Source: Flavobacteriales bacterium CG_4_9_14_3_um_filter_40_17
GTDB lineage: Bacteria; Bacteroidota; Bacteroidia; Flavobacteriales; Flavobacteriaceae
Assembly: GCA_002790195.1 (NCBI GenBank)
Contig: PFUR01000075.1
Location: 43,365-107,364 of the forward strand
Direction: 5' to 3'
Length of the DNA: 64,000 nt
Below are positions 7,417-45,953 of the stretch, piece after piece. The notes under the pieces are model-generated. The model was not told where the DNA came from, made no database searches, and was given only the letters and a program-made list of their open reading frames with translations. Position numbers and translations under genes: made by a program. The first letter of the stretch is position 1; each line of letters starts with the position of its first letter.

Positions 7417-9000
7417 ATGGGAATCATATCATTTGTAGGCTTCACTTTATTGGTGGCATTGATTGCTTGGTGGTCAACTCGAAAAACCAATGAAAGCACT
7501 TCCGATGGCTACTTTCTGGGAGGAAGAAGCCTGACAGCTGGCGTTATCGCCGGCTCACTCTTGCTTACCAACTTATCAACTGAACAAATTGTCGGGCTCA
7601 ACGGTCAAGCTTATACCGAAGGGATTTTGGTTATGGCGTGGGAAACCTTGGCGGCTATTGCCATAGTCTTGACTGCTCTGTTCTTGCTTCCCCGCTATCT
7701 CAAAGGTGGCCTGACTACTGTCCCGCAATTTCTTGAAAAAAGATTTGACCGGTTTACCAAAACACTTACCTCCGGGCTTTTCTTGAGCGGATATGTTGTG
7801 GTGCTTTTGCCAATTGTGCTTTATTCAGGTGCTCTGGCCATCAATACCATGTTTAATATTCCAAAATTGTTGAACGTTTCTGATACGACCGCACTCTGGA
7901 TTATGGTTTGGTCTATTGGAATTGTAGGCTCCATCTACGCAATTTTCGGCGGGTTGAAAGCGGTCGCCGTTTCTGATACAGTCAATGCCATCGGCCTATT
8001 GATAGGCGGTTTATTGATTCCTATTTACGGTTTGTACAAAATCGGTGAAGGAAGTATCATTGACGGTTTTGACACCTTGATGGAATCTCATCCCGAGAAA
8101 TTTGATGCCATCGGCGACAGCCACGCGACCGTCCCATTCGCTACTATTTTTACCGGTATGATGTTGGTGCAGCTATTTTATTGGGGCACCAACCAAGCCA
8201 TCATCCAACGGGCTTTGGCAGCCAAAAACCTCAAGGAAGGCCAAAAAGGTTTGATGCTGGCAGCTTTCATTAAAATTTTGGGGCCGATTATCGTGGTTTT
8301 ACCGGGTATCATCGCCTTTCACATGTTTGGAAACTTAGAGAACCCCGATCAGGCCTATCCGACCTTGGTCAACGCCGTGTTGCCGAAAGTTTGGCTCGGG
8401 TTTTTTGCCGCCGTTCTCTTCGGCGCTATTTTGAGTTCGTTTAACAGCGCGCTCAACAGCTCGGTAACTCTTTTCGGAATCGATATTTACAAAGAATACT
8501 TTAACAGGGAAGCCAGCGAACTCAGGGTAGTAAAAGCCGGAAAGTTATTTGGAGTCTTGTTGGCTTTGCTTTCTATGTTTATTGCTCCGCTGATTGCCAA
8601 TGCTCCACAAGGTTTGTTTGGCTATTTGCAAGAAGTAAACGGCTGCTACAACATCCCGATTCTCACCATCATCGTAGTGGGTTATTTGACCAAACGCGTA
8701 CCTGCCATTGCAGCGAAAGTAGCTTTGTTCTCAGGTGTTATTTTGTATAGCGTCAGTCAGTTTGTCTTAAAACCTTACGTATTCGGCAACGACAATTATC
8801 CGCATTTTCTCCATGTGATGGCCATCCTGTTTGTAGTCAACGTGTTGATTATGCTTATCATCGGCAAACTGTATCCCAACGAAGCGCCTTACGAACAAGC
8901 TTATACCAAGCAGGTTGATATTGTTCCTTGGAAACACGTGAAGTTGGTCGGAATAGGTATTTTGGTCATCGTAATTGGGGTTTATATCTATTTCTCCTAA
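7417..9000 (+). CDS. Sodium:solute symporter, SGLT-like (SSS family)
   Basis: A 527-residue sodium:solute symporter with about 14 hydrophobic helices. The region SDGYFLGGRSLTAG followed by NLSTEQIVGLNGQAY is the segment shared with bacterial SGLT-type sugar/Na+ symporters, and the C terminus ends in a single helix after EAPYEQAYTKQ, also as in SGLTs. Substrate is probably a hexose or another small polyol/sugar; the neighbouring glycosidases and sugar genes support this but do not fix it. It is its own transcription unit: a strong hairpin terminator follows the stop by about 25 bases. Confidence 0.9.
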   Translation: MGIISFVGFTLLVALIAWWSTRKTNESTSDGYFLGGRSLTAGVIAGSLLLTNLSTEQIVGLNGQAYTEGILVMAWETLAAIAIVLTALFLLPRYLKGGLTTVPQFLEKRFDRFTKTLTSGLFLSGYVVVLLPIVLYSGALAINTMFNIPKLLNVSDTTALWIMVWSIGIVGSIYAIFGGLKAVAVSDTVNAIGLLIGGLLIPIYGLYKIGEGSIIDGFDTLMESHPEKFDAIGDSHATVPFATIFTGMMLVQLFYWGTNQAIIQRALAAKNLKEGQKGLMLAAFIKILGPIIVVLPGIIAFHMFGNLENPDQAYPTLVNAVLPKVWLGFFAAVLFGAILSSFNSALNSSVTLFGIDIYKEYFNREASELRVVKAGKLFGVLLALLSMFIAPLIANAPQGLFGYLQEVNGCYNIPILTIIVVGYLTKRVPAIAAKVALFSGVILYSVSQFVLKPYVFGNDNYPHFLHVMAILFVVNVLIMLIIGKLYPNEAPYEQAYTKQVDIVPWKHVKLVGIGILVIVIGVYIYFS

Positions 9001-9024
9001 AAAAAGCCATTTGATACAATATCG

Positions 9025-9066
9025 AAAGGAACAGATTTTTTAAAAGAAAAAGCCTGTTCCTTTTTT
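9025..9066 (+). terminator. Intrinsic terminator after the SGLT-like symporter
   Basis: A 10-base perfect stem (AAAGGAACAG at 9025-9034, CTGTTCCTTT at 9054-9063) closed by an AT-rich loop that can itself pair, followed by a T-run. Confidence 0.85.
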
Positions 9067-9073
9067 CATTGCT

Positions 9074-9081
9074 TATATTTG
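9074..9081 (+). promoter_or_regulatory. Candidate -7 box for the EEP gene
   Basis: TATATTTG, a full TAnnTTTG match, sits directly after the preceding terminator and 34 bases before the ATG at 9116. No clear -33 TTG. Confidence 0.4.
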
Positions 9082-9115
9082 ATTATATTCATTACACAAA
9101 AGAATTTAAAAAAAC

Positions 9116-9961
9116 ATGAAAACTACTATTCATTTCTGTTTCCTGATTTTTTTTATGTCAACGGGATTTCACACATTTTCGCAATCTCTCAAAGTGATGA
9201 CCTACAACATCCGGCTCAACGTGGAGTCTGACGGTGAAAATGCATGGCCTAACCGCAAAGATTATTTCACTTCACAAATACAATTTTACGAACCGGATAT
9301 ATTCGGAATACAAGAAGCTCTTCCTAATCAAATTACTGATATTTCAAACGCGTTGGGGCAATACGAGTATGTCGGTATTGGCAGAGATGGCGAAGGAAAA
9401 GGCGAGTCGTCGAATATTTTTTATAAAAAAGACCGGTTTACGGTTATGGAAACCCAAACTTTTTGGCTTTCAGAAACACCCGGCAAAATATCCAAAGGTT
9501 GGGATGCGGCTTTGAACCGGGTTTGTACGTATGCCTTGTTGTCTGATGAAACTACCGGGAAGCGTCTTTGGATTTTCAATACCCATTTGGACCACATCGG
9601 CGAAGAAGCCCGCACCAAGAGTATCAAACTGATTCTTTCAAAAATAGAAGCCGTCAACAGTCCTGACTATCCGGTTATTTTCATGGGCGATTTCAATTCT
9701 GAACCCGGCGTCGAAAGAATTATTTCACTCAAAAAAGAAATGGTTGACACCCGCTCAACCTCTGAAAACGCGCCTTTCGGCCCGTCTGGCACATTCAACG
9801 GATTCAAGCATAACGAACCAGTAACCCTCTTGATTGACTACATTTTCATCTCAAAAAATGAAAAACTGAAAGTATTGAAATATGCTGTCTTGAGCGATTC
9901 AAAAGATTTAAAATATCCATCCGACCATTTGCCGGTTTATGTCGAATTAAAATATCAGTAA
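9116..9961 (+). CDS. Exported endonuclease/exonuclease/phosphatase-family protein
   Basis: A 281-residue metal-dependent hydrolase of the EEP fold with a signal peptide (about 1-22, ending TFSQ). The four fold motifs are in order: MTYNIRLN near the start, the metal-binding glutamate in GIQEALPNQ, the NTHLDHIG block, MGDFNSEPG, and the catalytic SDHLPV near the end, with the preceding LIDYIFI. The family covers phosphodiesterases acting on DNA, sphingomyelin or inositol phosphates; short secreted Bacteroidota members next to sugar genes are usually unassigned, so the substrate is open. It lies 36 bases upstream of the GH16 gene, probably in one operon. Confidence 0.88.
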   Translation: MKTTIHFCFLIFFMSTGFHTFSQSLKVMTYNIRLNVESDGENAWPNRKDYFTSQIQFYEPDIFGIQEALPNQITDISNALGQYEYVGIGRDGEGKGESSNIFYKKDRFTVMETQTFWLSETPGKISKGWDAALNRVCTYALLSDETTGKRLWIFNTHLDHIGEEARTKSIKLILSKIEAVNSPDYPVIFMGDFNSEPGVERIISLKKEMVDTRSTSENAPFGPSGTFNGFKHNEPVTLLIDYIFISKNEKLKVLKYAVLSDSKDLKYPSDHLPVYVELKYQ

Positions 9962-16495: not shown

Positions 16496-16986
16496 AAAAA
16501 ACCTAATCACAACACGTGGATGAGGGCTTTCAAAAAATAGATGAATCATTTATTTCGCCGATAGATTGACCAAAGCTTCTTGAACTCAAATAAAAAAGTA
16601 GCGTTTGGTAAGCCATAAAACAGCAAGCCCCAAGTGCTTTTGAAATCCATATAAAGAATTTAAGGGTATGAAGTAAAATATTAAGTTGAATGAAAATCAG
16701 TTTAGCTTAAAAATTAGGTTCCGATTTTTTTTTGATTTAATTTACGGTTTTGTGTCAATAGTCTTTTGTGGCATCTAAAAAAGAGTTTAAAGACAATCAA
16801 GTGCTACTTTTGTATTCCTCAATACTTGAAAAATTTATCTAAACAAAAAAGGATGCTTCTGCCCATTTATTGCAAACTATTTTCTTAAAATATTCATATA
16901 AATGCATAAAGGATATTCAATCACAGAAAGTTTTTTACTAAATTAGGGGTAGTTTTTTAAAAAAACTACTATTTAGATTCTAATCA
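16496..16986. other. Intergenic leader region upstream of the molybdenum cofactor locus
   Basis: About 490 bases with no credible gene. It contains a TAnnTTTG box (TACTTTTG, 16805-16812) about 175 bases before the first gene, which would leave a long untranslated leader. No terminator for the fructokinase operon and no recognisable riboswitch were seen. Confidence 0.4.
16949..16969. promoter_or_regulatory. Perfect 10-base palindrome before the Moco locus
   Basis: GTAGTTTTTT and its exact reverse complement around a single central A, 17 bases upstream of the first reading frame. It could be an operator or an RNA hairpin that affects translation. Its AT-rich core makes a chance occurrence possible. 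Confidence 0.4.
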
Positions 16987-17305
16987 ATGTCAAAAATCCC
17001 AAAAACATACACCGATTTCAAAGATGAATTTCCTGATGTGAGTCTGATCTATTATAATTTAGGAACAGCGGTTCACAATGCCGAGCCTTTAGACGATAAA
17101 ACAAGGGCACTCAGAAAATTAGGGATGTCCTGCGTGGCGCAAAAAGAAGGAGCCGTGCATTCCCAGACGCGCAAAGCGCTGGATATAGGTTTGCACCAAA
17201 GCAGAAATTCACCACGTGGTGGTACTTATGTTGCCCAAACCAGGCTTACCCGTTATGATGGCTGCAATGACCTAGGTAAACGATATCCTTGAACCCAACA
17301 AATAA
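16987..17305 (+). pseudogene. Carboxymuconolactone decarboxylase-family gene, broken
   Basis: A relic of a small AhpD/CMD-like protein of about 106 residues. The first 69 codons are intact in style (LDDKTRALRKLG, TRKALDIGL). One extra base near 17194 then shifts the frame; reading in the neighbouring frame restores TKAEIHHVVVLMLPKPGLP and MMAAMT, which is the expected C-terminal half. There a second lesion follows: a TAG at 17273-17275 where relatives have tryptophan, before VNDILEPNK and TAA. Two independent lesions make a pseudogene more likely than sequencing error. The intact protein would be a small helical redox or decarboxylase-like enzyme; homologues often sit with Moco genes. Confidence 0.75.
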
Positions 17306-17312
17306 CCATTCA

Positions 17313-18293
17313 ATGCTCAAAGACACCTTTAACAGAACCCACGATTACCTGCGCATTTCCTTAACCGATGCCTGCAACTTCCGCTGCTTGTATTGTATGC
17401 CCAATGAGCAAATGAAGTTTATGCCGGCAAAGCATTTGATGCAAGCAGATGAAATTGAAATCCTCGCCAAGACTTTTGTAGAGTTGGGGGTAAAAAAAAT
17501 AAGGCTTACAGGTGGCGAACCGCTGGTGCGAAAAGATGCAAAAGTCATCGTCGCGCGGTTGTCCCAATTTCCGGTAGAACTTACCTTAACAACCAATGCT
17601 GCTTTGGTGGACAAGTTTATTGACGTGTTTCATCAGGCCGGTATTAAATCCATCAACGTGAGTTTAGACACCCTGCAAAAAGATAAATTTTTGAAACTCT
17701 CCAAGCGCGATTTGTTTGAAAAAGTATGGAATAACATTCAGTTGTTGATTGAAGAAGGTTTTCACGTAAAAGTAAACGTGGTGGTGATGAAAGGCATCAA
17801 CAACGATGAAATCCTTGATTTTATTGAATGGACCAAAAACCAACCCGTACACGTGCGTTTTATCGAGTTTATGCCTTTTGACAAAAACCAATGGAACAGC
17901 TCCAAAGTGTTCAGCTATCAGGAAATACTGAATCTGGCCGAAACCCAATTCAGCTTTATCAAAATGAAAGATGGCACGAACGAAACAGCCAAAAAATTCA
18001 AACCTTTTGGGCATCAGGGTACTTTTGCAGTCATCAGCACAATGAGCGCGCCGTTTTGCCTCAATTGCAACCGAATAAGGCTCACGGCAGACGGAAAAAT
18101 GAAAAACTGCCTTTTTTCTAAAGGAGAAGCCGATATCCTTACCGCTTTACGAAATCAAGAAGACATCGTGCGCATCATCAAAACCTGCGTGGGACAGAAA
18201 GAAAAAGCCCTTGGCGGACAGTTTGAAGGCGATTTTCATAAAATAGACACCACCAACATAAACAATCGGAGTATGATACGCATTGGCGGTTAA
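17313..18293 (+). CDS. moaA: GTP 3',8-cyclase MoaA
   Basis: Radical SAM enzyme (326 residues from the ATG at 17313) that starts molybdenum cofactor synthesis by turning GTP into 3',8-cyclo-7,8-dihydro-GTP, with MoaC finishing the step. The SAM cluster ligands are C21, C25 and C28 in ACNFRCLYC; the C-terminal cluster is bound by FCLNCNRIRLT and the following NCL. The protein ends SMIRIGG; the C-terminal double glycine is essential in known MoaA proteins. A longer frame opens at a TTG (17289) that overlaps the upstream pseudogene; the ATG gives the usual family start (DTFNRTHDYLRISLTDAC). Confidence 0.96.
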   Translation: MLKDTFNRTHDYLRISLTDACNFRCLYCMPNEQMKFMPAKHLMQADEIEILAKTFVELGVKKIRLTGGEPLVRKDAKVIVARLSQFPVELTLTTNAALVDKFIDVFHQAGIKSINVSLDTLQKDKFLKLSKRDLFEKVWNNIQLLIEEGFHVKVNVVVMKGINNDEILDFIEWTKNQPVHVRFIEFMPFDKNQWNSSKVFSYQEILNLAETQFSFIKMKDGTNETAKKFKPFGHQGTFAVISTMSAPFCLNCNRIRLTADGKMKNCLFSKGEADILTALRNQEDIVRIIKTCVGQKEKALGGQFEGDFHKIDTTNINNRSMIRIGG

Positions 18294-18347
18294 CTTTTGC
18301 CCACCATTATTCTCAAAAATCAACAAATCATCAATCATCAATCAAAA

Positions 18348-19523
18348 ATGATTCCTGTTTCCGAAGCCCTAAACCTAATCATCACACATTGTAAAACTTC
18401 GCGGGTTGAGGAAAAATCGCTGCCCGATGCCTTGGGATATGCACTTGCCGAAACGCTTTTTGCAAAAATGGACACCCCGCCTTTTGACAACTCGGCGATG
18501 GATGGTTATGCGTTTTCCTATGCGCTTTGGGATAAGAAAAATCCTTTAAAGGTCGTGGGCGAAGTGCAAGCCGGCGATGAATACCGTTTGAAAATTGGCG
18601 TCAATGAAGCCATCCGGATTTTCACCGGAGCACCCCTTCCACCTGATGTGGATACGGTGATTATGCAGGAAAAAGTAGAGCGCAACGATGACAAAATCAT
18701 CTTGCTTGACGAAAATCTAAAACAAGGTAACAACATTCGCCCCAAAGGTTCACAAACCAAAAAAGACGACCTTGCTTTAGAAAAAGGACAATCAATAACA
18801 CCGGCCGGAATTTCCTATTTGGCAGGAATGGGCTATTCAAAAGTGAAGGTGTATGCCAAACCCAAAGTGAGCATCATCATCACCGGAAAAGAACTCGTGA
18901 AAGCAGGTGACACCTTAGAATCGGGCAAGATCTATGAATCCAACGGAATTGGTTTGACTGCTGCTTTACGTCAACTCAACATCGAGCCGGTTTCGGTGGC
19001 CTTGGTTGACGATGTTTCCGAAGCTATTGAAAAAGTCATTAAAAATCAATTGAGTAGCGACATTGTCATTCTCACCGGTGGCGTTTCGGTGGGGAATTAT
19101 GATTTAGTACCGGCAGCTTTGGAAAAATGTGGCGTGGAGAAAATCTTTCACAAAGTAAAACAAAAACCCGGCAAACCCTTCTATTTCGGAACAACAGCTA
19201 ATGCACTGATTTTTGCACTTCCTGGAAATCCGGCGGCGGTTATGACCTGCTTTTACGAATATGTAGTGGCTGCCATTGATTATTTTACTCAAAAAACACA
19301 TCTTAAATCCTTGCAACTTCCTTTAAATAATGACTTTACCAAAAATCAGGGACTCACGTATTTTTTAAAAGGCAAAACCACAGAAAAGGGTGTCGAAATT
19401 TTAGACAGTCAGTTGAGTTATATGCTCAACTCCTTTGCCATTGCCGATTGCTTGATTACCCTTGAAGAAGACAAAACGAATTACAAAAAAGGGGATGTAG
19501 TACCGGTTTTAATGATTGCGTAA
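18348..19523 (+). CDS. moeA: Molybdopterin molybdotransferase MoeA
   Basis: Inserts molybdate into adenylated molybdopterin (391 residues). The N-terminal part has DTPPFDNSAMDGYAF, the middle the MoCF-binding fold with ILTGGVSVGNYD, followed by KVKQKPGKPFYFG and ALPGNPAAVMTCF, and a C-terminal beta-barrel (residues about 325-391). The ATG at 18348 was chosen because homologues start with IPVSEAL; a TTG 51 bases upstream gives an unlikely extension. The start is preceded by a run of TCAATCA repeats that also appears before moaCB. One base separates its stop from the ModE-like gene. Confidence 0.95.
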   Translation: MIPVSEALNLIITHCKTSRVEEKSLPDALGYALAETLFAKMDTPPFDNSAMDGYAFSYALWDKKNPLKVVGEVQAGDEYRLKIGVNEAIRIFTGAPLPPDVDTVIMQEKVERNDDKIILLDENLKQGNNIRPKGSQTKKDDLALEKGQSITPAGISYLAGMGYSKVKVYAKPKVSIIITGKELVKAGDTLESGKIYESNGIGLTAALRQLNIEPVSVALVDDVSEAIEKVIKNQLSSDIVILTGGVSVGNYDLVPAALEKCGVEKIFHKVKQKPGKPFYFGTTANALIFALPGNPAAVMTCFYEYVVAAIDYFTQKTHLKSLQLPLNNDFTKNQGLTYFLKGKTTEKGVEILDSQLSYMLNSFAIADCLITLEEDKTNYKKGDVVPVLMIA

Positions 19524-19524
19524 A

Positions 19525-19863
19525 ATGGAACTAAAAAACTATCAGGCAAAAGGACGTATCTGGCTGGAAACCGAACAAGACCATCAGTTAAGTCCAGGAC
19601 GGCAAAAGTTGATATTGGCCATCAAAGAGTTTGGCTTCATTTCCAAAGTAGTAAAAAAAATGAAGATTTCTTACCGCCACGCTTGGGAAATCATTAATGA
19701 GCTAAATGCCTCTTCCAACCTGCCGATTGTTGAAAAAAACTCCAGTGGCAGCGGTGGCGGTGGCAGTAAGTTAACAGAATCCGGAGAAACTTTACTCAAA
19801 CAATATGAGCAATGCCAAAACGAATTTGAAGCATTTAAATCCGAATTAAATAAAGTTGAATAA
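19525..19863 (+). CDS. ModE-like winged-helix DNA-binding protein
   Basis: A 112-residue protein equal to the N-terminal DNA-binding domain of the molybdate regulator ModE, without the C-terminal molybdate-binding (MOP) domains. Motifs: LSPGRQKLILAIKEFGFISKV, then the recognition helix ISYRHAWEIINELN, then a glycine/serine-rich wing (SGSGGGGSKLTESG). Such short forms occur widely and may act as repressors of Moco or molybdate uptake genes, though how they sense molybdate without MOP domains is unclear. It lies within the Moco operon; a possible ModE-like half-site is present upstream of arsD. Confidence 0.88.
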   Translation: MELKNYQAKGRIWLETEQDHQLSPGRQKLILAIKEFGFISKVVKKMKISYRHAWEIINELNASSNLPIVEKNSSGSGGGGSKLTESGETLLKQYEQCQNEFEAFKSELNKVE

Positions 19864-20601
19864 ATGAGCTTAGAAATCAGCATCTTATTTTTTGTCTTAC
19901 TTTTTGTAGCGGCTTTTTTCTATGCCTCTGTGGGCCACGGCGGCGCGAGCGGTTACTTGGCTTTGATGGCCTTGTTTTCGTTTGCGCCCGAAACGATGCG
20001 CCCTACGGCATTGGTCTTGAATATTTTTGTGTCGTTTATGGCGTTTTATCAGTTTTACAGAAAGGGCTTTTTTCAATGGAAACTATTTTGGCCTTTTGCC
20101 GTTGCTTCCATTCCTGCGGCATTTATCGGCGGTTTAATTACGGTTGACGATCAAATTTACAAACGCATTTTGGGAGTTTTGCTGCTGTTTGCCATCGCAC
20201 GGTTTTTGGGTTTTGGCATCAATAAAGATAAAATTCAAAAGAAACAACTGCTGTCTCTTTCCTTATTGATAGGGGTCGTTATCGGACTTTTTTCAGGAAT
20301 GATTGGCATTGGTGGCGGTATCATTTTGAGTCCATTGATTTTGCTTTTAGGATGGGCAAACTTGAAACAAACGGCTGCCATTTCAGCTTTGTTTATTTTT
20401 GTAAACAGTGTGTCAGGATTGGCAGGATTGGTTTCACAAGACGTGCAATTCAACACTTTGATGTGGGCAATGCTAAGCGTGGCGTTGGTGGGTGGTATGT
20501 TGGGTTCTTATTTTGGCGCGAACAAATTTAATAGCAATAAATTAAAATATGCCTTGTCATTTGTGTTGCTCATTGCTTCGATTAAATTAATGTTTACCTA
20601 A
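19864..20601 (+). CDS. Sulfite exporter TauE/SafE-family membrane protein
   Basis: A 245-residue membrane protein of the TauE/SafE (DUF81) family with about 8 hydrophobic segments. Both family repeats are seen: VGHGGASGYLALMALF at the start of the first half and SGMIGIGGGIILSPLI in the second. Family members export sulfite, sulfoacetate or related sulfur anions. Its position inside a Moco operon suggests a link to sulfite chemistry (sulfite oxidase and MsrP-type enzymes carry Mo-molybdopterin) or to anion balance, but direction and substrate are inferred. Confidence 0.87.
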   Translation: MSLEISILFFVLLFVAAFFYASVGHGGASGYLALMALFSFAPETMRPTALVLNIFVSFMAFYQFYRKGFFQWKLFWPFAVASIPAAFIGGLITVDDQIYKRILGVLLLFAIARFLGFGINKDKIQKKQLLSLSLLIGVVIGLFSGMIGIGGGIILSPLILLLGWANLKQTAAISALFIFVNSVSGLAGLVSQDVQFNTLMWAMLSVALVGGMLGSYFGANKFNSNKLKYALSFVLLIASIKLMFT

Positions 20602-21189
20602 ATGAACAACTCCATTCCACATACCACAGGATACATTCTCGCCGTCGGCAAAAGTACTCGAATGGGCGAAGACAAAGGACTGAAAGCTTTCAACGGAAAG
20701 GTCCTTGTGGCATCGGTTATCGAAGAATTGCAAAAGGCTGTAAATAAAGTTGTTATTGTTTCGAGCAATCCGTCGTATGAACAATTTGGATTGGAAGTTG
20801 TGGAAGATTTGGTAAAAAACATCGGTCCGGCGGGAGACATTTATACCGACTAGCAACACAGCAACACCGAAAAAAACTTTATCGTGAGTTGTGATATGCC
20901 TTTTGTTACAACTGAAGCAATGGCATTTATGTTGCAACAAAGGAAAGAGGCAGAAATTACCTTGCCCAAAATAAACGGCAAGCTGGAACCGCTTTTTGGG
21001 GTGTATTCAAAAAAATGCGTGTCTCTTTGGAAGCGTTTGATTGATGAAAACTGCATCAAACTTCAGGATATTTCAACACATTTTGATTTAAAAATTATAG
21101 AAGTGACAAACAATTCCCTATTTTCGGAAAAACTATTTCAAAACCTCAATACCCAAGACGAATTTAAAAATGCTTTAAAGACTTTATAA
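20602..21189 (+). pseudogene. mobA: mobA (molybdenum cofactor guanylyltransferase) with in-frame stop
   Basis: One reading frame of 196 codons, the normal MobA length, interrupted by TAG at 20851-20853 (codon 84). Before it: ILAVGKSTRMGEDKGL, the nucleotide-binding loop, but with valine where MobA normally has the second glycine of LAGGKS. After it the same frame continues with QHSNTEKNFIVSCDMPF, the Mg-GTP binding block, to the end. TTG (leucine) is the expected codon at the stop. The loop change suggests real decay and not just a read error. An intact MobA attaches GMP to the cofactor, needed by DMSO-reductase-family enzymes. Confidence 0.8.
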
Positions 21190-21190
21190 A

Positions 21191-21424
21191 ATGGAAATTA
21201 GTATTTTATTTTTTGGACAATTGGCTGAAATTATCGGGAAACCAAGCTTGAGTCTGAGCAATGTTTCCAATACCGATGATTTAAAAGCCCATCTGCAACA
21301 GCAATTTCCTGCTTTAGAAGAAATGACGTTTTCTATAGCTGTGAATAAAAATATCATTCAACAAAACACGCACTTAAACGCAGGCGACGAAGTGGCTTTA
21401 TTGCCTCCCTTTTCCGGCGGATAA
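21191..21424 (+). CDS. moaD: Molybdopterin synthase sulfur carrier subunit MoaD
   Basis: A 77-residue ubiquitin-fold protein that carries the thiocarboxylate sulfur used to make the dithiolene of molybdopterin. It starts MEISILFFGQLAE and ends LLPPFSGG; the terminal GG is the site of adenylation and thiocarboxylation. It sits just upstream of its activating enzyme (MoeB-like) and one gene before MoaE, its synthase partner. Confidence 0.94.
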   Translation: MEISILFFGQLAEIIGKPSLSLSNVSNTDDLKAHLQQQFPALEEMTFSIAVNKNIIQQNTHLNAGDEVALLPPFSGG

Positions 21425-21433
21425 AAGAGAAAA

Positions 21434-22531
21434 ATGAATACAGAAAATAGATATCAACGACAATTGCAATTAACTGGTTTCGGCAAAGAGGCTCAGAAAA
21501 AATTGGCTATGGCTAAAGTCTTGGTAATAGGTGCCGGTGGCTTGGGTTGCCCGGCCTTGCAGTATCTCGCAGGTGCCGGCGTGGGTACCTTGGGAATTGT
21601 AGATTTTGATACGGTTTCCCTGAGCAATCTGCATCGGCAAACGCTTTATGCCACGGAAGATGTTGGTAAATTAAAAGTAGAAGTTGCAACCAAAAAACTG
21701 AAGGCACTAAACCCCGAAATCGAAATTGTACCCTACATCGTTCAACTTAACAATCAAAACGCATTGGAGATTTTAAAAAGTTACGATATCATCATCGATG
21801 GAAGCGATAATTTCAGCACCCGGTATTTGGTGAACGATGCCTGCGTGTTGCTCGATAAGCACTTGATTTATGGTGCCGTGATGCGTTTTGAAGGGCAAGT
21901 GGGCGTTTTCAACCTCGAAAGAAACAACCTGAAAACCAATTACCGCGACTTGTTTCCCACACCGCCCGATGCGGCAAGTGCACCTTCTTGTAATGACGTT
22001 GGGGTTTTGGGGGTTTTGCCGGGTATAATCGGCACTTGGCAAGCTTCAGAAGCCCTAAAAATCATCACCGGAATAGGAATGCCTTTGGCTAATAAATTAC
22101 TAACTATTAATCTGTTGCATAATTCTTTTTACGAATTTCAATTGGCAAAAAACTCTAAAAGTGAAATGGAAATGCCTAAAGATGCCACTGCTCTTTTGCA
22201 GTTTAACTACGATTGGTTTTGCAATAAAGCCTATGAAAACATACTTTCCTGCAAAGCCTTTGATCAACTTCTAAAACAGCAAAAATGCCTCATCATAGAT
22301 GTGCGAGAGCCCAATGAAATGCCGATTATCACTGAATTTGAAACGCTGCAACTTCCGTTGAGCCGCTTTAGCGAAAGCATTGCTGACAAGACATTTAACA
22401 ACACCGTGGTAGTACTTTGCCAAAGTGGGCAACGCAGTTTAAAAGCCTTAGAACTTTTAAAAAAACAACATCCAAAACTCACCGCATTCAGTTTGGAAGG
22501 CGGTATAACCCAATGGAAAAAATCACATTAA
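21434..22531 (+). CDS. MoeB/MoeZ-type MoaD adenylyltransferase with rhodanese domain
   Basis: A 365-residue E1-like enzyme that adenylates the MoaD C terminus, fused to a sulfurtransferase. Residues about 1-245 are the ThiF/MoeB fold: nucleotide loop VIGAGGLGCPALQ, NLHRQTLY, and the metal-binding aspartate in DGSDNFSTRY. Residues about 260-365 are a rhodanese domain with the active-site cysteine in LCQSGQRS. The zinc-binding CxxC of E. coli MoeB is replaced by NYRD in this protein, and a second CxxC is not seen, so the structural zinc is probably absent; the cysteine in APSCNDVG is retained. The fused rhodanese makes it resemble MoeZ/MOCS3, able to both activate and sulfurate MoaD. Confidence 0.92.
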   Translation: MNTENRYQRQLQLTGFGKEAQKKLAMAKVLVIGAGGLGCPALQYLAGAGVGTLGIVDFDTVSLSNLHRQTLYATEDVGKLKVEVATKKLKALNPEIEIVPYIVQLNNQNALEILKSYDIIIDGSDNFSTRYLVNDACVLLDKHLIYGAVMRFEGQVGVFNLERNNLKTNYRDLFPTPPDAASAPSCNDVGVLGVLPGIIGTWQASEALKIITGIGMPLANKLLTINLLHNSFYEFQLAKNSKSEMEMPKDATALLQFNYDWFCNKAYENILSCKAFDQLLKQQKCLIIDVREPNEMPIITEFETLQLPLSRFSESIADKTFNNTVVVLCQSGQRSLKALELLKKQHPKLTAFSLEGGITQWKKSH

Positions 22532-22541
22532 AATAAAACCA

Positions 22542-22985
22542 ATGAGCAATCACAAACCAAAAAAAATATTTATAGACGGTGCCATTCCGCCGGAATTTAT
22601 TGGTGAAACCATCGCCAAACACAGCAGCAAAAAAGACATTGGCGCACACAATATTTTTCTTGGTCAGGTGCGCAATGATGTCATCGAAGGTAAAACAGTA
22701 GCTGCTATTGATTATTCAGCTTATGAAGAAATGGCAAATGAGAAGTTTCACGAAATCCGCGAAGCCGCTTTTGAAAAATACCCGTTGAATTGTATGCACA
22801 TTTACCACAGCTTGGGAAGCGTAGCCGCCGGCGAAATCTGTTTGTTTGTCTTCACTTCCTCCAAACACCGAAAAGATGCTATTGCTGCTTGCGAATACCT
22901 TGTAGAACGAATCAAAGCCGAAGCACCTGTTTGGGGTAAGGAAGTTTTTGAAGATGAAAGTTTTAACTGGAAAGTAAATAATTGA
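22542..22985 (+). CDS. moaE: Molybdopterin synthase catalytic subunit MoaE
   Basis: A 147-residue subunit that, with MoaD, converts cyclic pyranopterin monophosphate to molybdopterin. Family blocks: GAHNIFLGQVRNDV, IDYSAYEEMA, HIYHSLGSVAAGE, the arginine/histidine block SSKHRKDA, and EAPVWGKEVF, whose lysine is catalytic in E. coli MoaE. It follows the MoeB-like gene by 10 bases and precedes moaCB. Confidence 0.95.
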   Translation: MSNHKPKKIFIDGAIPPEFIGETIAKHSSKKDIGAHNIFLGQVRNDVIEGKTVAAIDYSAYEEMANEKFHEIREAAFEKYPLNCMHIYHSLGSVAAGEICLFVFTSSKHRKDAIAACEYLVERIKAEAPVWGKEVFEDESFNWKVNN

Positions 22986-23052
22986 TGATTGATTTTAGAA
23001 GTCTTTATTCAATCATCAATATTAAATAGTCAATATACAATAATCAATCAAA

Positions 23053-23967
23053 ATGGTCGATATCACCTTTAAAATCAAATCACACCGCATTGCCGTGGCA
23101 CAAGCTATTGTAAAAGTTAGCAAACAAGAAACCATTGATGCCATCCATAACAAAACCGTACCTAAAGGCGACGTGATAGAAGCGAGCCGCGTGGCGGGAC
23201 TTTTTGGCATCAAAAAGACAAGCGAAATGATTCCCGATTGCCATCCGCTGCCGGTAGAATTTGCAGCCGTAAGGCACCGCATCGTGGGCTTGGAAATCAT
23301 CATAGAAACCGAAGTTCAAACCATTTACCGCACCGGCGTGGAAGTAGAAGCAATGCACGGTGCGTCTGTGGTGGCGCTCACCATATACGATATGCTGAAA
23401 CCCATCGATAAGGAAATCGAAATCAAAAACATCAAACTCCTTAAGAAAAAAGGCGGAAAATCCCAATATAAAGTTGTTTTAAGCCGAACCATCAAAGCAG
23501 TGGTTATTGTGTGTTCCGACAGTATTTCTGCCGGAAAAAAACAGGATTTTGCAGGAAAGGCAATCATTCAAAAATTAGAAGATATTGGTGGCGTAAGCAT
23601 TGAGGATTACGTGATTATACCCGATGAAATTTCAGAAATACAAGCAAAAGTTCTAGCACATTACGATAAAAAAACAGACCTCATCATCGTTACCGGAGGC
23701 ACCGGATTATCAGCTCGCGATGTCACACCCGAAGCTATCAAGCCTTTGTTGGATCAGGAAATTCCGGGAATTGGCGAAGTGGCGCGTGCTTACGGGCAAG
23801 AACATATGCCGTATGCAATGTTATCTCGAAGTTTGGGCGGGCTCAAAGGAAATTCGCTTATCTTGGCATTGCCCGGCTCTACCCGTGGTGCTGCCGAAAG
23901 TATGGATGCGTTGTTTCCGTATCTGCTGCACATTTTTAAAATTATGGAACATTCGGCACACGAATAA
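23053..23967 (+). CDS. moaCB: Bifunctional MoaC/MoaB fusion
   Basis: A 304-residue fusion of two Moco enzymes. Residues about 1-150 are cyclic pyranopterin monophosphate synthase MoaC (MVDITFKIKSHRIA, DCHPLPVEF, VEAMHGASVVALTIYDMLK), which completes the step begun by MoaA. Residues about 155-304 are a MoaB/MogA-type molybdopterin adenylyltransferase (VIVCSDSISAGKK, LIIVTGGTGLSARDVTPEA, LALPGSTRGAAES). The MoaCB fusion is known from Bacteroidota and some other groups. It is the last Moco gene here. The 67-base gap before it is built from TCAATCA/ATCAATC repeats like those before moeA. Confidence 0.94.
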   Translation: MVDITFKIKSHRIAVAQAIVKVSKQETIDAIHNKTVPKGDVIEASRVAGLFGIKKTSEMIPDCHPLPVEFAAVRHRIVGLEIIIETEVQTIYRTGVEVEAMHGASVVALTIYDMLKPIDKEIEIKNIKLLKKKGGKSQYKVVLSRTIKAVVIVCSDSISAGKKQDFAGKAIIQKLEDIGGVSIEDYVIIPDEISEIQAKVLAHYDKKTDLIIVTGGTGLSARDVTPEAIKPLLDQEIPGIGEVARAYGQEHMPYAMLSRSLGGLKGNSLILALPGSTRGAAESMDALFPYLLHIFKIMEHSAHE

Positions 23968-24013
23968 TTTGTAGACCAAAATTGGGGTTGATAATTTTTT
24001 ATATCTATATTTA

Positions 24014-24040
24014 ATCGCTATATTGCAATATAATAATATA
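24014..24040. promoter_or_regulatory. Palindromic operator candidate upstream of arsDA
   Basis: A perfect 14-base palindrome TATATTGCAATATA (24019-24032) lies 26 bases before the arsD ATG, preceded by ATCGC and followed by ATAATATA. It could be an ArsR-type operator, as expected before ars genes. The left part, ATCGCTATAT, also resembles the half-site of the E. coli ModE box as I remember it, which is notable because a ModE-like protein is encoded upstream. Confidence 0.45.
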
Positions 24041-24057
24041 TTTTAAAAATCAAAGCA

Positions 24058-24645
24058 ATGAAAATAACAATTTTAGACCCAGCCATGTGCTGTAGCACCG
24101 GAGTGTGCGGAGAAGATGTAGATGATGCCTTGGTAGCAACCGCTGCCAATGTAAAGTGGCTAAAATCCCTTAGATATGAAGTCAATCGACACAATATTTC
24201 AAATGATGGTGCGGTTTTCAAAGACTATCCACAGGCGGTTGATAAACTCAAAAAAGAGGGTGTGGATTCGCTCCCTTACATTTTGGTGAACGATCAAATC
24301 GTGATGGCAGGAAGCTATCCCACCAAATCCGAATGGATGCAATTTTTGGGTAATGAAACTTCAGAAGCTCAAAATCCAAAAACTGAAGTTGACGATACCA
24401 CAAAAATCAACCTCCTGATTTCCATCGGTTCGGCCATTGCGGCTTCGAACGAGAAAGCACTTAAGCATTTTGTAGATGAAGCAAAAACAGCGAATATTTC
24501 CATCGAAGAAATAGCTAATGCCCTGAATATTGGCAACAATTTGCGTACTGAAGTATCACAAACAGTGGTGCAAACAGCCAATGCTTTACTAAGCGAAATA
24601 CAACCCGCGACTTCTTCTTGTTGCTCTGGTTCAAGCTGTTGCTAA
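24058..24645 (+). CDS. arsD: Arsenite metallochaperone ArsD with CMD-like C-terminal extension
   Basis: A 195-residue protein. Residues 1-105 are ArsD, a thioredoxin-fold chaperone that hands arsenite to the ArsA ATPase; the metal-binding cysteines C11, C12 and C17 are present in MCCSTGVCG, and VDSLPYILVNDQIVMAGSYP is the conserved second half. Residues about 113-175 form a helical domain (LISIGSAIAASNEKALKHFV, ISIEEIANALNIGNNLR) that resembles the AhpD/carboxymuconolactone decarboxylase repeat, but with ASNEKA where those have a redox CxxC. The tail ends SSCCSGSSCC, two vicinal cysteine pairs that could bind As(III). ArsD alone is about 120 residues, so the extension is an addition. It directly precedes arsA. 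Confidence 0.9.
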   Translation: MKITILDPAMCCSTGVCGEDVDDALVATAANVKWLKSLRYEVNRHNISNDGAVFKDYPQAVDKLKKEGVDSLPYILVNDQIVMAGSYPTKSEWMQFLGNETSEAQNPKTEVDDTTKINLLISIGSAIAASNEKALKHFVDEAKTANISIEEIANALNIGNNLRTEVSQTVVQTANALLSEIQPATSSCCSGSSCC

Positions 24646-24672
24646 TGGGTTAACCTCAAAATACAAAAAAAC

Positions 24673-26463
24673 ATGAAAATGTCAACACAATATCTCTTTT
24701 TCACCGGCAAAGGTGGTGTGGGAAAAACCTCTCTATCCTGTGCCACCGCAGTAAAAATGGCGGACGAAGGCAATAAGGTTTTACTCGTGAGTACCGACCC
24801 GGCATCTAATCTGCAGGATGTGTTAGACAGCCCCATTTCAGAAAAAATACAGCCTGTAAAAGGGCTTCAAAACCTTTCGGCCATCAATATTAACCCGGAA
24901 GTCTCAGCTCAGGAATACCGCAACCGCGTGACTGAACCTTTAAAAGACATTTTGCCAGAAGCAGACATCAAGAAAATGAACGAGCAGCTTTCGGGTGCTT
25001 GCACCACGGAAATCGCTTCCTTTGATGAGTTTTCACGATTTATTTCCGGCGAAAATGAAGGCGGAAATTTTGACGTGATCATCTTCGATACGGCTCCTAC
25101 AGGACACACCTTACGATTGTTGGAGTTGCCGGCTGCATGGGCATCTTTCTCAGAAGAAAATCCGGATGGCGCTTCTTGTCTGGGTCCAACTTCCGCCTTA
25201 AAAAGCAGTCAGGAGCGCTACAATAAAGTGGTGGCAACCTTGAGAGATGCCAAACAAACCACCTTTTATCTCGTGGCAAGAGCTGAAAAATCATCAATCA
25301 AAGAAGCTTCCCGCACCAGTGCCGAGTTACAATCGTTGGGACTCAACCACCAAAAATTATTGGTCAACGGGGTATTCAAAGCGCTGGATCAATCGGACGC
25401 TTTCGCCTTGAAAATGGAAAAAATGGCACAGCAGGAAATGGCTGATTTGCCTAAAAACTTACAAGATCTGGAACAGCAACGTTTTCCGTTGTTACCTTAC
25501 AATGTGTTAGGCATTGAAAAACTGCGCTCTTTGCTCGATACGATCCTGCAAGAAAAAGTAGTGCAGCAAACGCTTTCATCCACAAGCGTTCTAGTCCACG
25601 AACTCAACGGCATCGACCAGCTGGTCGATGACTTGACCAAGGAGCAGAATCACGGATTGATTATGACGATGGGAAAAGGCGGTGTGGGTAAAACCATTGC
25701 TGCTTCGGCCATCGCGGTGATGATTGCCCGCAAGGGTTTTGAAGTACATCTCACTACGACAGATCCGGCTGCTCACGTGCAGGATTTTATCAATCAGTTG
25801 GGAAGCTTACCTGAAAATATGACGGTTGATCGCATTGATCCCAAGGTGGAAACCCAACGCTACACCGAAAAGGTTTTGGCTCAAAAAGGTGCAAATATGG
25901 ACGAGCAAGGTAAGAAGTTATTGTTAGAAGATTTAAAATCGCCTTGCACAGAAGAAGTAGCCGTATTTCACGCCTTTTCAAAAGCCATTCAGCAAGCCAA
26001 GCGCAAGTTTGTGGTAATTGATACTGCACCCACCGGGCATACTTTATTGTTACTTGATACAGCCGGAAGCTACCACCGCGAAGTGATGCGCACTACCGGA
26101 ATGGATCCCGCTAAAATAAAAACGCCTTATATGGCATTGCAAGACGGCAGTTTGTCTAAAGTGATTTTGATTTCCTTGCCGGAAACCACCCCAATGCGTG
26201 AAGCTACGGCCTTACAAGAAGATTTGAAACGTGCGGGCATTTCGCCTTATGCTTGGGTGGTCAACCAAAGTCTTTCAATGCAAGACGGACTCAAAGACCT
26301 TTTATTGAAAAGCAGGGCTTTGGCAGAAGTGGATGTTATCAAAAACATCGAGAACACTCTTACAAACAAAATTTACGGCATTCCTTTTTTACCCAAAGAG
26401 CAACTTTTGACGGCACTCCTAGAATTTTATGATACCAAACAACTGGTAAAAGAAAAAAAATAG
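24673..26463 (+). CDS. arsA: Arsenical pump-driving ATPase ArsA
   Basis: A 596-residue cytoplasmic ATPase with two homologous halves, each with a P-loop (GKGGVGKTS near residue 10; GKGGVGKTI from G334) and a signal-transduction motif DTAPTGHT. The three arsenite-binding cysteines of the known enzyme have counterparts: SGACTTEIASFDEF and DGASCLGPTS in the first half and SPCTEEVAVFHAF in the second. ArsA energises an ArsB or Acr3 efflux channel with ArsD as metal donor. Neither channel nor an ArsR repressor or ArsC reductase is in this window, so the pump partner must be encoded elsewhere or ArsDA serves another function here. Confidence 0.95.
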   Translation: MKMSTQYLFFTGKGGVGKTSLSCATAVKMADEGNKVLLVSTDPASNLQDVLDSPISEKIQPVKGLQNLSAININPEVSAQEYRNRVTEPLKDILPEADIKKMNEQLSGACTTEIASFDEFSRFISGENEGGNFDVIIFDTAPTGHTLRLLELPAAWASFSEENPDGASCLGPTSALKSSQERYNKVVATLRDAKQTTFYLVARAEKSSIKEASRTSAELQSLGLNHQKLLVNGVFKALDQSDAFALKMEKMAQQEMADLPKNLQDLEQQRFPLLPYNVLGIEKLRSLLDTILQEKVVQQTLSSTSVLVHELNGIDQLVDDLTKEQNHGLIMTMGKGGVGKTIAASAIAVMIARKGFEVHLTTTDPAAHVQDFINQLGSLPENMTVDRIDPKVETQRYTEKVLAQKGANMDEQGKKLLLEDLKSPCTEEVAVFHAFSKAIQQAKRKFVVIDTAPTGHTLLLLDTAGSYHREVMRTTGMDPAKIKTPYMALQDGSLSKVILISLPETTPMREATALQEDLKRAGISPYAWVVNQSLSMQDGLKDLLLKSRALAEVDVIKNIENTLTNKIYGIPFLPKEQLLTALLEFYDTKQLVKEKK

Positions 26464-26580
26464 GCATCACAAAAACCGAACTTTTATCGTGCGTTTTATT
26501 ATTATCTTTTATATTAAACAACAAAGAATTTTTATTTAGAACTTATTTAAACTTTTATCAAAATAAGAGCAAACCCTAAC

Positions 26581-27183
26581 TTATCTCGGAGAATGCTCAA
26601 CAGTAGCCTCACGAACCCAATAATAATCTAAATTTTGATGCAGTTTGGCATTGATTAGTTCCATGCCTTCTTGGTAGGTGCTGCCTTGCGGAACGGCAAC
26701 GGCTTGACCGTTGGGCAGTGAAACCATGTAGAAACCGTCTTCAAATTTTGATAATTTGACATCTGTTCCGTCTATATTTTCTGCATACCAGGTTTTTTCT
26801 TCCGGCAAGTAATACATGTTTACTTTTTTGCCCTTTTTTTTCCCGGAGAGAACGGCCACCGAAAAATGATTTTGGGTAGCGGTAAGCTGGTATTTCACAC
26901 CGTCTTTTTCTACAAATTGGTTTTCGATATCGCCCGCTTGCATAGCTATCGGGTTGGAACCGGACCAAAATTCAATCACGTTGAAGATGATTAAGTCTCC
27001 CAAAAAAAACAACGGATAAACCGGGATGATAAAGAATCCCCAAAAAATGGCATTGTTGACAAACTTGCTGTCGGAAACCCCTTCGTTCCAGTTCTTAAGG
27101 TTGTTAAAAGCTTTGAATTCGCCGAGACATGATGAAGACAGAATGCTTGCAGTTAGCACAAGTGCTAGTAGGTTTTTTTTCAT
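26581..27183 (-). CDS. DUF3332-family lipoprotein
   Basis: A 200-residue protein with a lipoprotein signal (SSSCLG, cysteine about residue 19), a conserved N-terminal block (FNNLKNWNEGVSDSKFVNNAIFW), a hydrophobic stretch (FFIIPVYPLFFLGDLIIFNVIEFW) and a C-terminal half rich in beta-strands (residues about 90-170). This is the layout of DUF3332 proteins, which are widespread in Bacteroidota and lack an assigned role. It begins 24 bases downstream of the end of the MlaF-like gene and may be the last gene of that operon, which would fit an envelope function. Confidence 0.82.
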   Translation of the reverse strand: MKKNLLALVLTASILSSSCLGEFKAFNNLKNWNEGVSDSKFVNNAIFWGFFIIPVYPLFFLGDLIIFNVIEFWSGSNPIAMQAGDIENQFVEKDGVKYQLTATQNHFSVAVLSGKKKGKKVNMYYLPEEKTWYAENIDGTDVKLSKFEDGFYMVSLPNGQAVAVPQGSTYQEGMELINAKLHQNLDYYWVREATVEHSPR

Positions 27184-43895: not shown

Positions 43896-44567
43896 TTGAA
43901 AAAAATTCTTATTGTAGAAGATCAAATCGGTGTTTCACGATTTTTAAAACAGGGATTAGAGGAAGAATCATTCGTAGTAACGGTTGCTCAAAACGGGCTC
44001 GATGGGCTGAAATATTTATCAGAACAATCCTTTGGTTTGGTAATTTTAGACTGGAAATTACCCGGTATGAGCGGAATTGAAGTTTGTCAAAAATTCCGAT
44101 TGAAAGACGCTTCTACGCCAATTCTATTCCTGACGGCAAACGACACCCTCGAAGACACTTTAAAAGGCCTTCGATCCGGCGCAAATGACTACATTAAAAA
44201 ACCTTTTAGTTTTGAGGAATTGTTGGAACGCATAAAAATTCACTTCCGAGACAAAGAAGAAGAACCTATCATGACTGTCAATTTATTGAGAATTGACACC
44301 CGGACACACCAAGTTTTTAGATCCGATAAAGAAATCAACCTGACGCTGAAAGAATACCAGCTTTTGGTTTATTTAGCTACTAACAAAGGGAAAGTGTGCA
44401 CGCGTAAGGACATCATCAAAGATATATGGAACATCGGTTTTGAATATGACACGGGCGTAATCGATGTTTTCATCAATTCGATTCGGAAAAAATTAGATTT
44501 CAAAGCAACCAAAGATTTAATAAAAACCGTGAGAGGAGTCGGTTATATGATTGTTGAAGAAAACTAA
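43896..44567 (+). CDS. OmpR-family response regulator
   Basis: A 223-residue two-component regulator starting at TTG. The receiver domain (1-120) has acidic pocket E8-D9, phosphorylation site D52 in LVILDWKLPG, the switch threonine in LFLTAND and the lysine in YIKKPF. The C-terminal winged-helix DNA-binding domain (about 128-223) has LTLKEYQLLVYLATNKG and VDVFINSIRKKLD. It is followed after 3 bases by its sensor kinase. This pairing with a short-loop HAMP kinase resembles CusRS/heavy-metal or general envelope sensors; the signal is unknown. Confidence 0.95.
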   Translation: MKKILIVEDQIGVSRFLKQGLEEESFVVTVAQNGLDGLKYLSEQSFGLVILDWKLPGMSGIEVCQKFRLKDASTPILFLTANDTLEDTLKGLRSGANDYIKKPFSFEELLERIKIHFRDKEEEPIMTVNLLRIDTRTHQVFRSDKEINLTLKEYQLLVYLATNKGKVCTRKDIIKDIWNIGFEYDTGVIDVFINSIRKKLDFKATKDLIKTVRGVGYMIVEEN

Positions 44568-44570
44568 TTT

Positions 44571-45953
44571 ATGCGAAATTTATCCTTTACCAACCGCATT
44601 GCCTTTTACTTTATTTTAAGTACCGGGTTTCTTGTTTTCCTCATTTTTATCGCTACCTATCAAATTGTTTCGACAACGGTCAACAACCGCGTTGATCAAA
44701 ATTTGAGAGCAGAGGCCACTCATCATTTCTCAGAATTGATAGCCGACCATGGTAAACTTGTTTTTCGCGACTTAGACGAATGGAGAGAAAAGGAACACAA
44801 TGATCTAAACGTAAACCCGATTTTGGTGCAGATTGTAGATGAATTTGGAAATCTTATCGAAAAATCACCCAATCTGAAAAAAGAGCAAATGCAACTTAAA
44901 AAAGGGCTTACGGGCTATCAGATATACAATGAAAGTTTAAATAGTGAACTTGTCCGACAAGTGCAGATTCCTTTTTATGACGGAAAACTTCTTGAAGGCT
45001 ACTTGTTGGTTGCCACACCGTTGGAAGCTGCCAAAATGGTCATACAAAACTTAAAAGATGTAATGATACTGACTTATCCTATCGCTCTTCTGATTCTATT
45101 TTTCTTGGCAAAATTTATTGCTTCACGCAGTATTCAACCAGTAACCGAAATCATTCATACTGCCGAAACTATCAACAAAGAAAATCTGTCATCCCGTGTA
45201 AAACTGCCATCAAACAAAGATGAACTTTACCAACTTTCGGAAACCATCAACAATTTGCTCGGGCGAATTGAAAATGCCGTCATAAGGGAGAAGCAATTTA
45301 CCTCCGATGCTTCACACGAACTCCGAACGCCACTTTCCATCATCAAGGGAACGCTCGAAGTACTCCTCAGAAAATCGCGGACTGAAGAGGAATACAAAGA
45401 CAAGATAGGTTATTGCATCAATGAAACCAATCGGCTCAACGACCTGTTAGACCAACTTTTGTTACTGGCAAGGCAGGAATCGAATAGCTTGAATACCCAT
45501 CCATCTAATTTTGATATAAATAGCTTATTATTAGACATTATCAATCGGTATTCAATAAGAATATGCGGTAAATATATTCAGGTTTCTTTTGATTTTTCTA
45601 AAGAAATTTTGATTCATTCAGACTCCAATCTGCTGTCTATAATTTTGAGTAATTTACTGTCTAATGCCATTAAGTTTTCACCTGAAAATTCAAAGATTAC
45701 TATTTCTGTTTCAGAAAAAAATCAAGTTGTAACGTGCAAAATTTCAGATGAAGGCATTGGCATTGCAGAGAACGAAATAAACAAGATCTACGAAAAATTC
45801 TATAGGGCATCGCTCTCAGGACAAACCGTTGCAGAAGGAAGCGGTTTGGGTCTATCTATCACAAAAAGGCTTTGCGACACGCTCAATATCCAGTTAGACA
45901 TCAAGAACAACGAAAAAAAAGGCACGGAAGCAGTGTTGCAAATTCCAAAATAG
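44571..45953 (+). CDS. HAMP-domain sensor histidine kinase
   Basis: A 460-residue membrane kinase, cognate to the response regulator just upstream. Helix 1 is around residues 10-32, a periplasmic sensor region of about 125 residues follows, then helix 2 (about 160-182), a HAMP linker (ASRSIQPVTEIIHTAETIN), the dimerisation/phosphoacceptor helix with H249 in ASHELRTPLSII, and the ATPase domain with N box (LSNLLSNAIKFSP), G1 (CKISDEGIGIA) and G2 (GSGLGLSITKRL). All catalytic boxes are complete. Confidence 0.95.
   Translation: MRNLSFTNRIAFYFILSTGFLVFLIFIATYQIVSTTVNNRVDQNLRAEATHHFSELIADHGKLVFRDLDEWREKEHNDLNVNPILVQIVDEFGNLIEKSPNLKKEQMQLKKGLTGYQIYNESLNSELVRQVQIPFYDGKLLEGYLLVATPLEAAKMVIQNLKDVMILTYPIALLILFFLAKFIASRSIQPVTEIIHTAETINKENLSSRVKLPSNKDELYQLSETINNLLGRIENAVIREKQFTSDASHELRTPLSIIKGTLEVLLRKSRTEEEYKDKIGYCINETNRLNDLLDQLLLLARQESNSLNTHPSNFDINSLLLDIINRYSIRICGKYIQVSFDFSKEILIHSDSNLLSIILSNLLSNAIKFSPENSKITISVSEKNQVVTCKISDEGIGIAENEINKIYEKFYRASLSGQTVAEGSGLGLSITKRLCDTLNIQLDIKNNEKKGTEAVLQIPK

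Follow-up and report, generated by a model that had tools for sequence, protein, structure and literature searches.

The molybdenum cofactor (Moco) gene cluster in the 64,000-nucleotide stretch of DNA analyzed here (the window) was very probably acquired horizontally in place of the cluster native to the genus, and its mobA gene, most likely a passenger without a client enzyme, then decayed. The window belongs to G000, a draft assembly of 2.69 Mb in 87 contigs that is 99.5% complete. The relatives that matter most are the sister species G001 (draft assembly, 82% complete), the congener G002, and two metagenome-assembled genomes, G198 (Flavobacteriaceae bacterium bin.26) and G199 (Flavobacteriaceae M30B29), whose loci L037 and L038 contain the nearest intact mobA genes, present in the same gene order.

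Lesions and constraint in mobA

The mobA frame ends in TAA and contains one internal TAG at codon 84. As the original prediction stated, this codon interrupts an otherwise continuous frame. Each half matches MobA separately: the family model PF12804 (cut-off 27) gives 57 bits for the first half (20602-20850), 28 bits for the second (20884-21189), and 101.9 bits for the whole frame with X in place of the stop. Scores of the halves with the NCBIfam MobA model PRK00317 (52.2 and 55.6 bits) lie below its cut-off of 164, as do those of the intact genes of L037 (154.4 bits) and L038 (143.1 bits). The predicted alteration of the nucleotide loop, LAVGKS for LAGGKS, was also found; the loop reads LAVGKSTRMG in the window and LAGGKSSRMG in L037 and L038, so that the window copy has neither an intact LAGG loop nor a continuous frame. 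A further lesion, G79D, lies five codons upstream of the stop and adds to those described previously. The opposite-strand frame across mobA is broken by many stops; the antisense ORFs there are shorter, with 117, 80, and 69 amino acids.

These lesions were placed against 38 intact homologues, drawn from 29 of the 77 other MobA-matched genomes and from 9 of the 12 loci besides L037 and L038 (L041 and L048 were unused, and L043, the 39th sequence extracted, was left out for length). Twenty-five columns are conserved, that is, kept in at least 90% of the 38. The window copy deviates at three of them, G15V and G79D (glycine in 38/38) and the stop at Leu84 (37/38), whereas L037 and L038 deviate at none; 24 of the references deviate at no column, 11 at one, and 3 at two. 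Residues 15 and 79 correspond to Gly14 and Gly82 of E. coli MobA (PDB 1fr9, 1frw, 1e5k), a member of the same family, when counted by eye on the alignment via L037. Compared with the E. coli enzyme, the window copy is altered at both glycines and truncated. Because two invariant glycines have been lost in addition to the codon, a single base error is an insufficient explanation, and mobA, judged from its sequence, looks lost.

Constraint on the gene has changed as well. The pN/pS of mobA is 0.40 and 0.48 when the window is compared with L037 and L038, and 0.22 between L037 and L038. There is no comparable rise in moaA, moeA, tauE, moaD, and moeB, and a smaller one in modE; for moaE and moaCB the comparison was made with L038 only. 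Amino-acid changes private to the window copy of mobA number 40, against 13 and 16 on the L037 and L038 branches, while six other genes pooled have 126 in the window and 89 and 136 on the other two branches (Fisher p 0.0007 against mobA). ModE has 18 private changes in the window, 6 in L037, and 8 in L038. The window copy thus shows the marks of a pseudogene: intact orthologues in the same gene order elsewhere, constraint relaxed relative to its neighbors, and several lesions, namely the stop and the two invariant glycines. In a neutral simulation at 0.2 changes per site, a mean of about four stops arose, and one stop or none was seen in 7% of runs. The single stop and zero frameshifts of mobA are fewer than this predicts, which indicates either that constraint on mobA lasted until recently or that some of the divergence is older. 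Its complete loss is probably recent.

The Moco island and the relics of a native cluster

The cluster lies on an island with the gene order moaA-moeA-modE-tauE-mobA-moaD-moeB-moaE-moaCB, followed by arsDA; its neighbors are a pfkB-family kinase gene on one side and a DUF3332 gene on the other (Table 1). In G001 the two flanks are contiguous on one contig, which constitutes an empty site. The borders derive from blastn breaks at 16563 and 26613, with the left flank pushed to 16596 by gapped local alignment. We found no convincing repeat at the island ends and no mobility genes among the island ORFs that were run through family searches.

Table 1 Features of the Moco island in the window
Feature	Position	Strand	Remark
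Island missing from G001	16597..26612 (about, ~10 kb)		flanks adjoin in G001
Block colinear with L038	17312..24050	+	76% DNA identity
Block colinear with L037	17312..22801 (end of L037 locus)	+	78% DNA identity
Probable decayed carboxymuconolactone-decarboxylase-like relic	16987..17310	+	frames by eye; PF02627
moaA, intact	17313..18293	+	
moeA, intact	18297..19523	+	ATG at 18348
ModE-domain protein, intact	19525..19863	+	TIGR00637 69 bits, cut-off 98.5 not reached
TauE/SafE-family permease, intact	19864..20601	+	PF01925, 128 bits
mobA pseudogene (Mo-cofactor guanylyltransferase)	20602..21189	+	amber at codon 84, G15V, G79D
In-frame TAG	20851..20853	+	TTG (Leu) in L037; Leu in 37/38 homologues
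moaD, intact	21191..21424	+	
moeB with rhodanese-like region, intact	21434..22531	+	
moaE, intact	22542..22985	+	
moaC/moaB fusion, intact	23053..23967	+	
arsD, island cargo	24058..24645	+	
arsA (two-half), island cargo	24673..26463	+	terminator TAG

The probable relic listed in Table 1 lies directly upstream of moaA, near the left end of the island, and contains a frame change and a stop; its PF02627 match (E 0.0012, 19.3 bits) does not reach the cut-off of 23. In L038, the region after moaCB (8419-9671) encodes a regulator of the ArsR/SmtB family and gives a weak arsenate-reductase-like match. Beyond the island, a two-component system (window 43896-45953) lies about 17 kb from the DUF3332 gene; in G002 (L143:10801-12866) the same system adjoins that gene, which points to a local rearrangement. 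A squalene-hopene cyclase is encoded at window 61102-63057 (PF13243/PF13249).

Among 30 genomes, MoaA of the window is 85% identical to that of G198 and 81% to that of G199, but at most 56% to the others and 39% to that of G002. SucA, encoded in the same window, has the opposite affinities: 93% to G001, 78% to G002, and 72% to G198 and G199. DNA identity to L038 and L037 is 76–78% over the Moco cluster, against 69% for SucA in the same genomes. The corresponding trees conflict. MoaA groups G000 with G198 and G199 (support 100/100), whereas SucA groups G000 with G001 and G002 (100/100) and places G198 and G199 elsewhere. These are trees of one gene each, with 25 MoaA and 29 SucA rows from the 30 genomes, and carry a long-branch warning outside the window's group. 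No moeA, moaA, or mobA was found in the 82% complete assembly of G001.

The Moco cluster of G002 (L070:4952-15305, on G002:C12) is unrelated to that of the window and has the order iorA-iorB-moaD-moaE-moaA-moaC-mobA-moeB-tauE-moeA-xdhC-mocA. Here iorA and iorB are our working names, after isoquinoline oxidoreductase, for subunits of the xanthine-oxidase family; no search returned that name. On a contig other than the window's, G000 retains mocA, xdhC, iorB, and iorA (74–90% identity to G002; 72–90% protein identity for the surroundings as a whole), with a gap of 515 bases between iorB and xdhC where G002 has its Moco genes. The gap contains scraps of moaD (E 1.5e-5; 0/300 shuffles as good), moaA (weak; E 0.008, 1/300), and moeA (E 8e-9, 0/300), in the order of G002; for the other five of the eight native proteins searched (tauE, moaC, mobA, moeB, moaE), nothing in the gap rose above chance. 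MoeA has only one match in G000, so Mo-molybdopterin (Mo-MPT) in this genome probably comes from the imported cluster. It would then be this cluster that feeds the xanthine-oxidase-family enzyme.

Clients of MobA and competing explanations

The search for molybdoenzymes in G000 covered the families PF00384, PF00174, and PF02738. The first two families had no match in this 99.5% complete genome. The third had one, a 750-residue xanthine-oxidase-family subunit; of the solved structures, the large subunit of an aldehyde dehydrogenase (8gy3) matches it best. The set is completed by a PF20256 match in the same subunit, a 2Fe-2S subunit, XdhC, and a nearby MocA-type protein; the last scores 156 bits with TIGR03310 (cut-off 186 not reached) and 53 bits with the MobA model TIGR02665. 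No second MobA was found among the five PF12804 places of G000, which comprise the window mobA, this MocA-type protein, one PF02348 cytidylyltransferase, and two PF00483 nucleotidyl transferases. Both the predicted mobA loss and the predicted lack of bis-MGD enzymes are therefore borne out, the latter for the families searched.

Xanthine-oxidase-family enzymes carry Mo-MPT or MCD, and MocA makes MCD (PMC2997495). The enzyme of G000 is thus expected to carry one of these two forms, completed by its own MocA and XdhC, and would not need guanylylation. A further candidate class of MobA client is the AOR family, to which E. coli YdhV belongs. The bis-Mo-MPT found in YdhV is also formed by MobA (PMC9103625).

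G198 and G199 present the opposite picture to G000, with PF00384 present and PF02738 absent. The PF00384 protein of G199 is a formate dehydrogenase alpha subunit (815 bits; cut-off 666), and in G198 a gene of this family is divided between the ends of two contigs (155 and 633 bits); fdhD accompanies it in both genomes. Formate dehydrogenase is an enzyme of the bis-MGD type. Across 198 genomes including G000, PF00384 occurs in 75 of the 78 with a MobA-type match and in 15 of the 120 without, where PF00384 also takes in NuoG-like proteins, many of the 15 are weak matches, and the count of PF00384 genomes is 84 over the cut-off and 90 at E 0.001. The three MobA-type genomes that lack PF00384 are G000, G002, and G108. 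In G002 and G108 the MobA-type genes are free of stops; such a gene can thus be retained where a PF00384 client is missing, and a strict rule of "no client, no MobA" is weakened by these two genomes. The G002 cluster encodes both MobA-type and MocA-type proteins.

Could mobA nevertheless be functional, with the TAG a sequencing or assembly error? We consider this improbable. The lesion is one substitution without a frameshift in a draft assembly of 87 contigs, and stops are fewer than free drift predicts; however, two findings do not depend on the stop: G15V and G79D alter positions that all 38 homologues keep unchanged, and pN/pS is roughly double the value for the two intact genes. A PF00384 client is also absent. 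The open frame and the paucity of stops would also suit a gene whose TAG is read through, or whose halves are made separately (the second from the GTG at 20884), and which still works, but both glycine changes would remain in such a product, and we regard this as very unlikely. Amber suppression itself was rejected: TAG serves as an ordinary terminator, closing two (arsA and an lptC-like gene) of the 30 window genes that were checked, and the window contains no suppressor tRNA, tRNA-Phe being its only tRNA.

Two further accounts accept the loss of mobA and explain it differently. If the window's cluster were ancestral in the genus and had been lost by G001 and G002, mobA could have decayed vertically after loss of a bis-MGD enzyme. 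The incompleteness of G001, in which the three genes were sought, leaves room for such a history, but the conflict between MoaA and SucA trees, the 39% identity of MoaA to G002 against 85% to G198, and the relics of a G002-type cluster in G000 make it quite improbable. The original prediction held that loss of mobA would leave Mo-MPT for enzymes of the sulfite-oxidase or MsrP type, with TauE handling sulfite. Although the absence of PF00384 agrees with this, PF00174 is equally absent, and the molybdoenzyme present is instead of the xanthine-oxidase family, with a MocA-type protein. Nor is TauE a sign of sulfite chemistry, because the two unrelated types of Moco cluster each contain a PF01925 gene, both the imported one (window, L038) and that of the congener (L070), where the gene accompanies a xanthine-oxidase-family enzyme. 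This part of the prediction failed, and we find the sulfite account scarcely credible.

Proposed history and its meaning

We favor horizontal import followed by decay of mobA, and infer the order of events as follows. The Moco cluster would have arrived on the island that also carries arsD and arsA, its source being either the lineage of the two formate-dehydrogenase-bearing Flavobacteriaceae or one shared with them, and would have replaced the genus's own cluster, leaving scraps between iorB and xdhC. Since the molybdoenzyme of G000, of the xanthine-oxidase family, would have no need of a guanylylated cofactor, mobA most likely came as a clientless passenger. Selection on it would have relaxed, with loss of two invariant glycines and one codon, while the remaining genes of the cluster, presumably still making Mo-MPT, stayed intact. 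XdhC and MobA of R. capsulatus are competitors for Mo-MPT (PMC2997495), which allows another reading: the imported MobA may have been harmful, drawing Mo-MPT into a dead end, so that its loss was selected and the pathway pruned to the host's enzyme. We think this unlikely.

The case has several counterparts. Leimkuhler and Klipp reportedly found in 1999 that a Rhodobacter capsulatus mobA mutant needs MobA for its MGD enzymes but not for xanthine dehydrogenase; that strain is a laboratory mutant, whereas G000 represents a natural state. In the available portion of a study of Dielma fastidiosa (PMC6147048), the Moco pathway was likewise acquired as a block, as shown by tree conflict. There, molybdoenzymes came along with the pathway, whereas in G000 only pathway genes are seen, the native cluster has disappeared, and it is the gene serving an absent enzyme class that decayed. 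The xdhC-mocA operons described in the accessible text of PMC2997495 resemble G000 in having MocA and XdhC homologues beside a xanthine-oxidase-family enzyme; G000 differs in that the Moco genes between iorB and xdhC, which the congener keeps, are reduced to scraps. In the open-license literature we found no report of replacement of a Moco cluster with decay of mobA.

G000 is instructive, although cases of this kind are known. Its record of the event is unusually full: donor-like relatives, an empty site in the sister species, remnants of the cluster that was displaced, and an imported step that decayed, that step being the one whose enzyme class was not found. Among these relatives, our results support the use of mobA to indicate PF00384 enzymes; G002 and G108 are exceptions that deserve study. 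G000 also offers a natural setting in which to test how MobA and XdhC/MocA compete over Mo-MPT.
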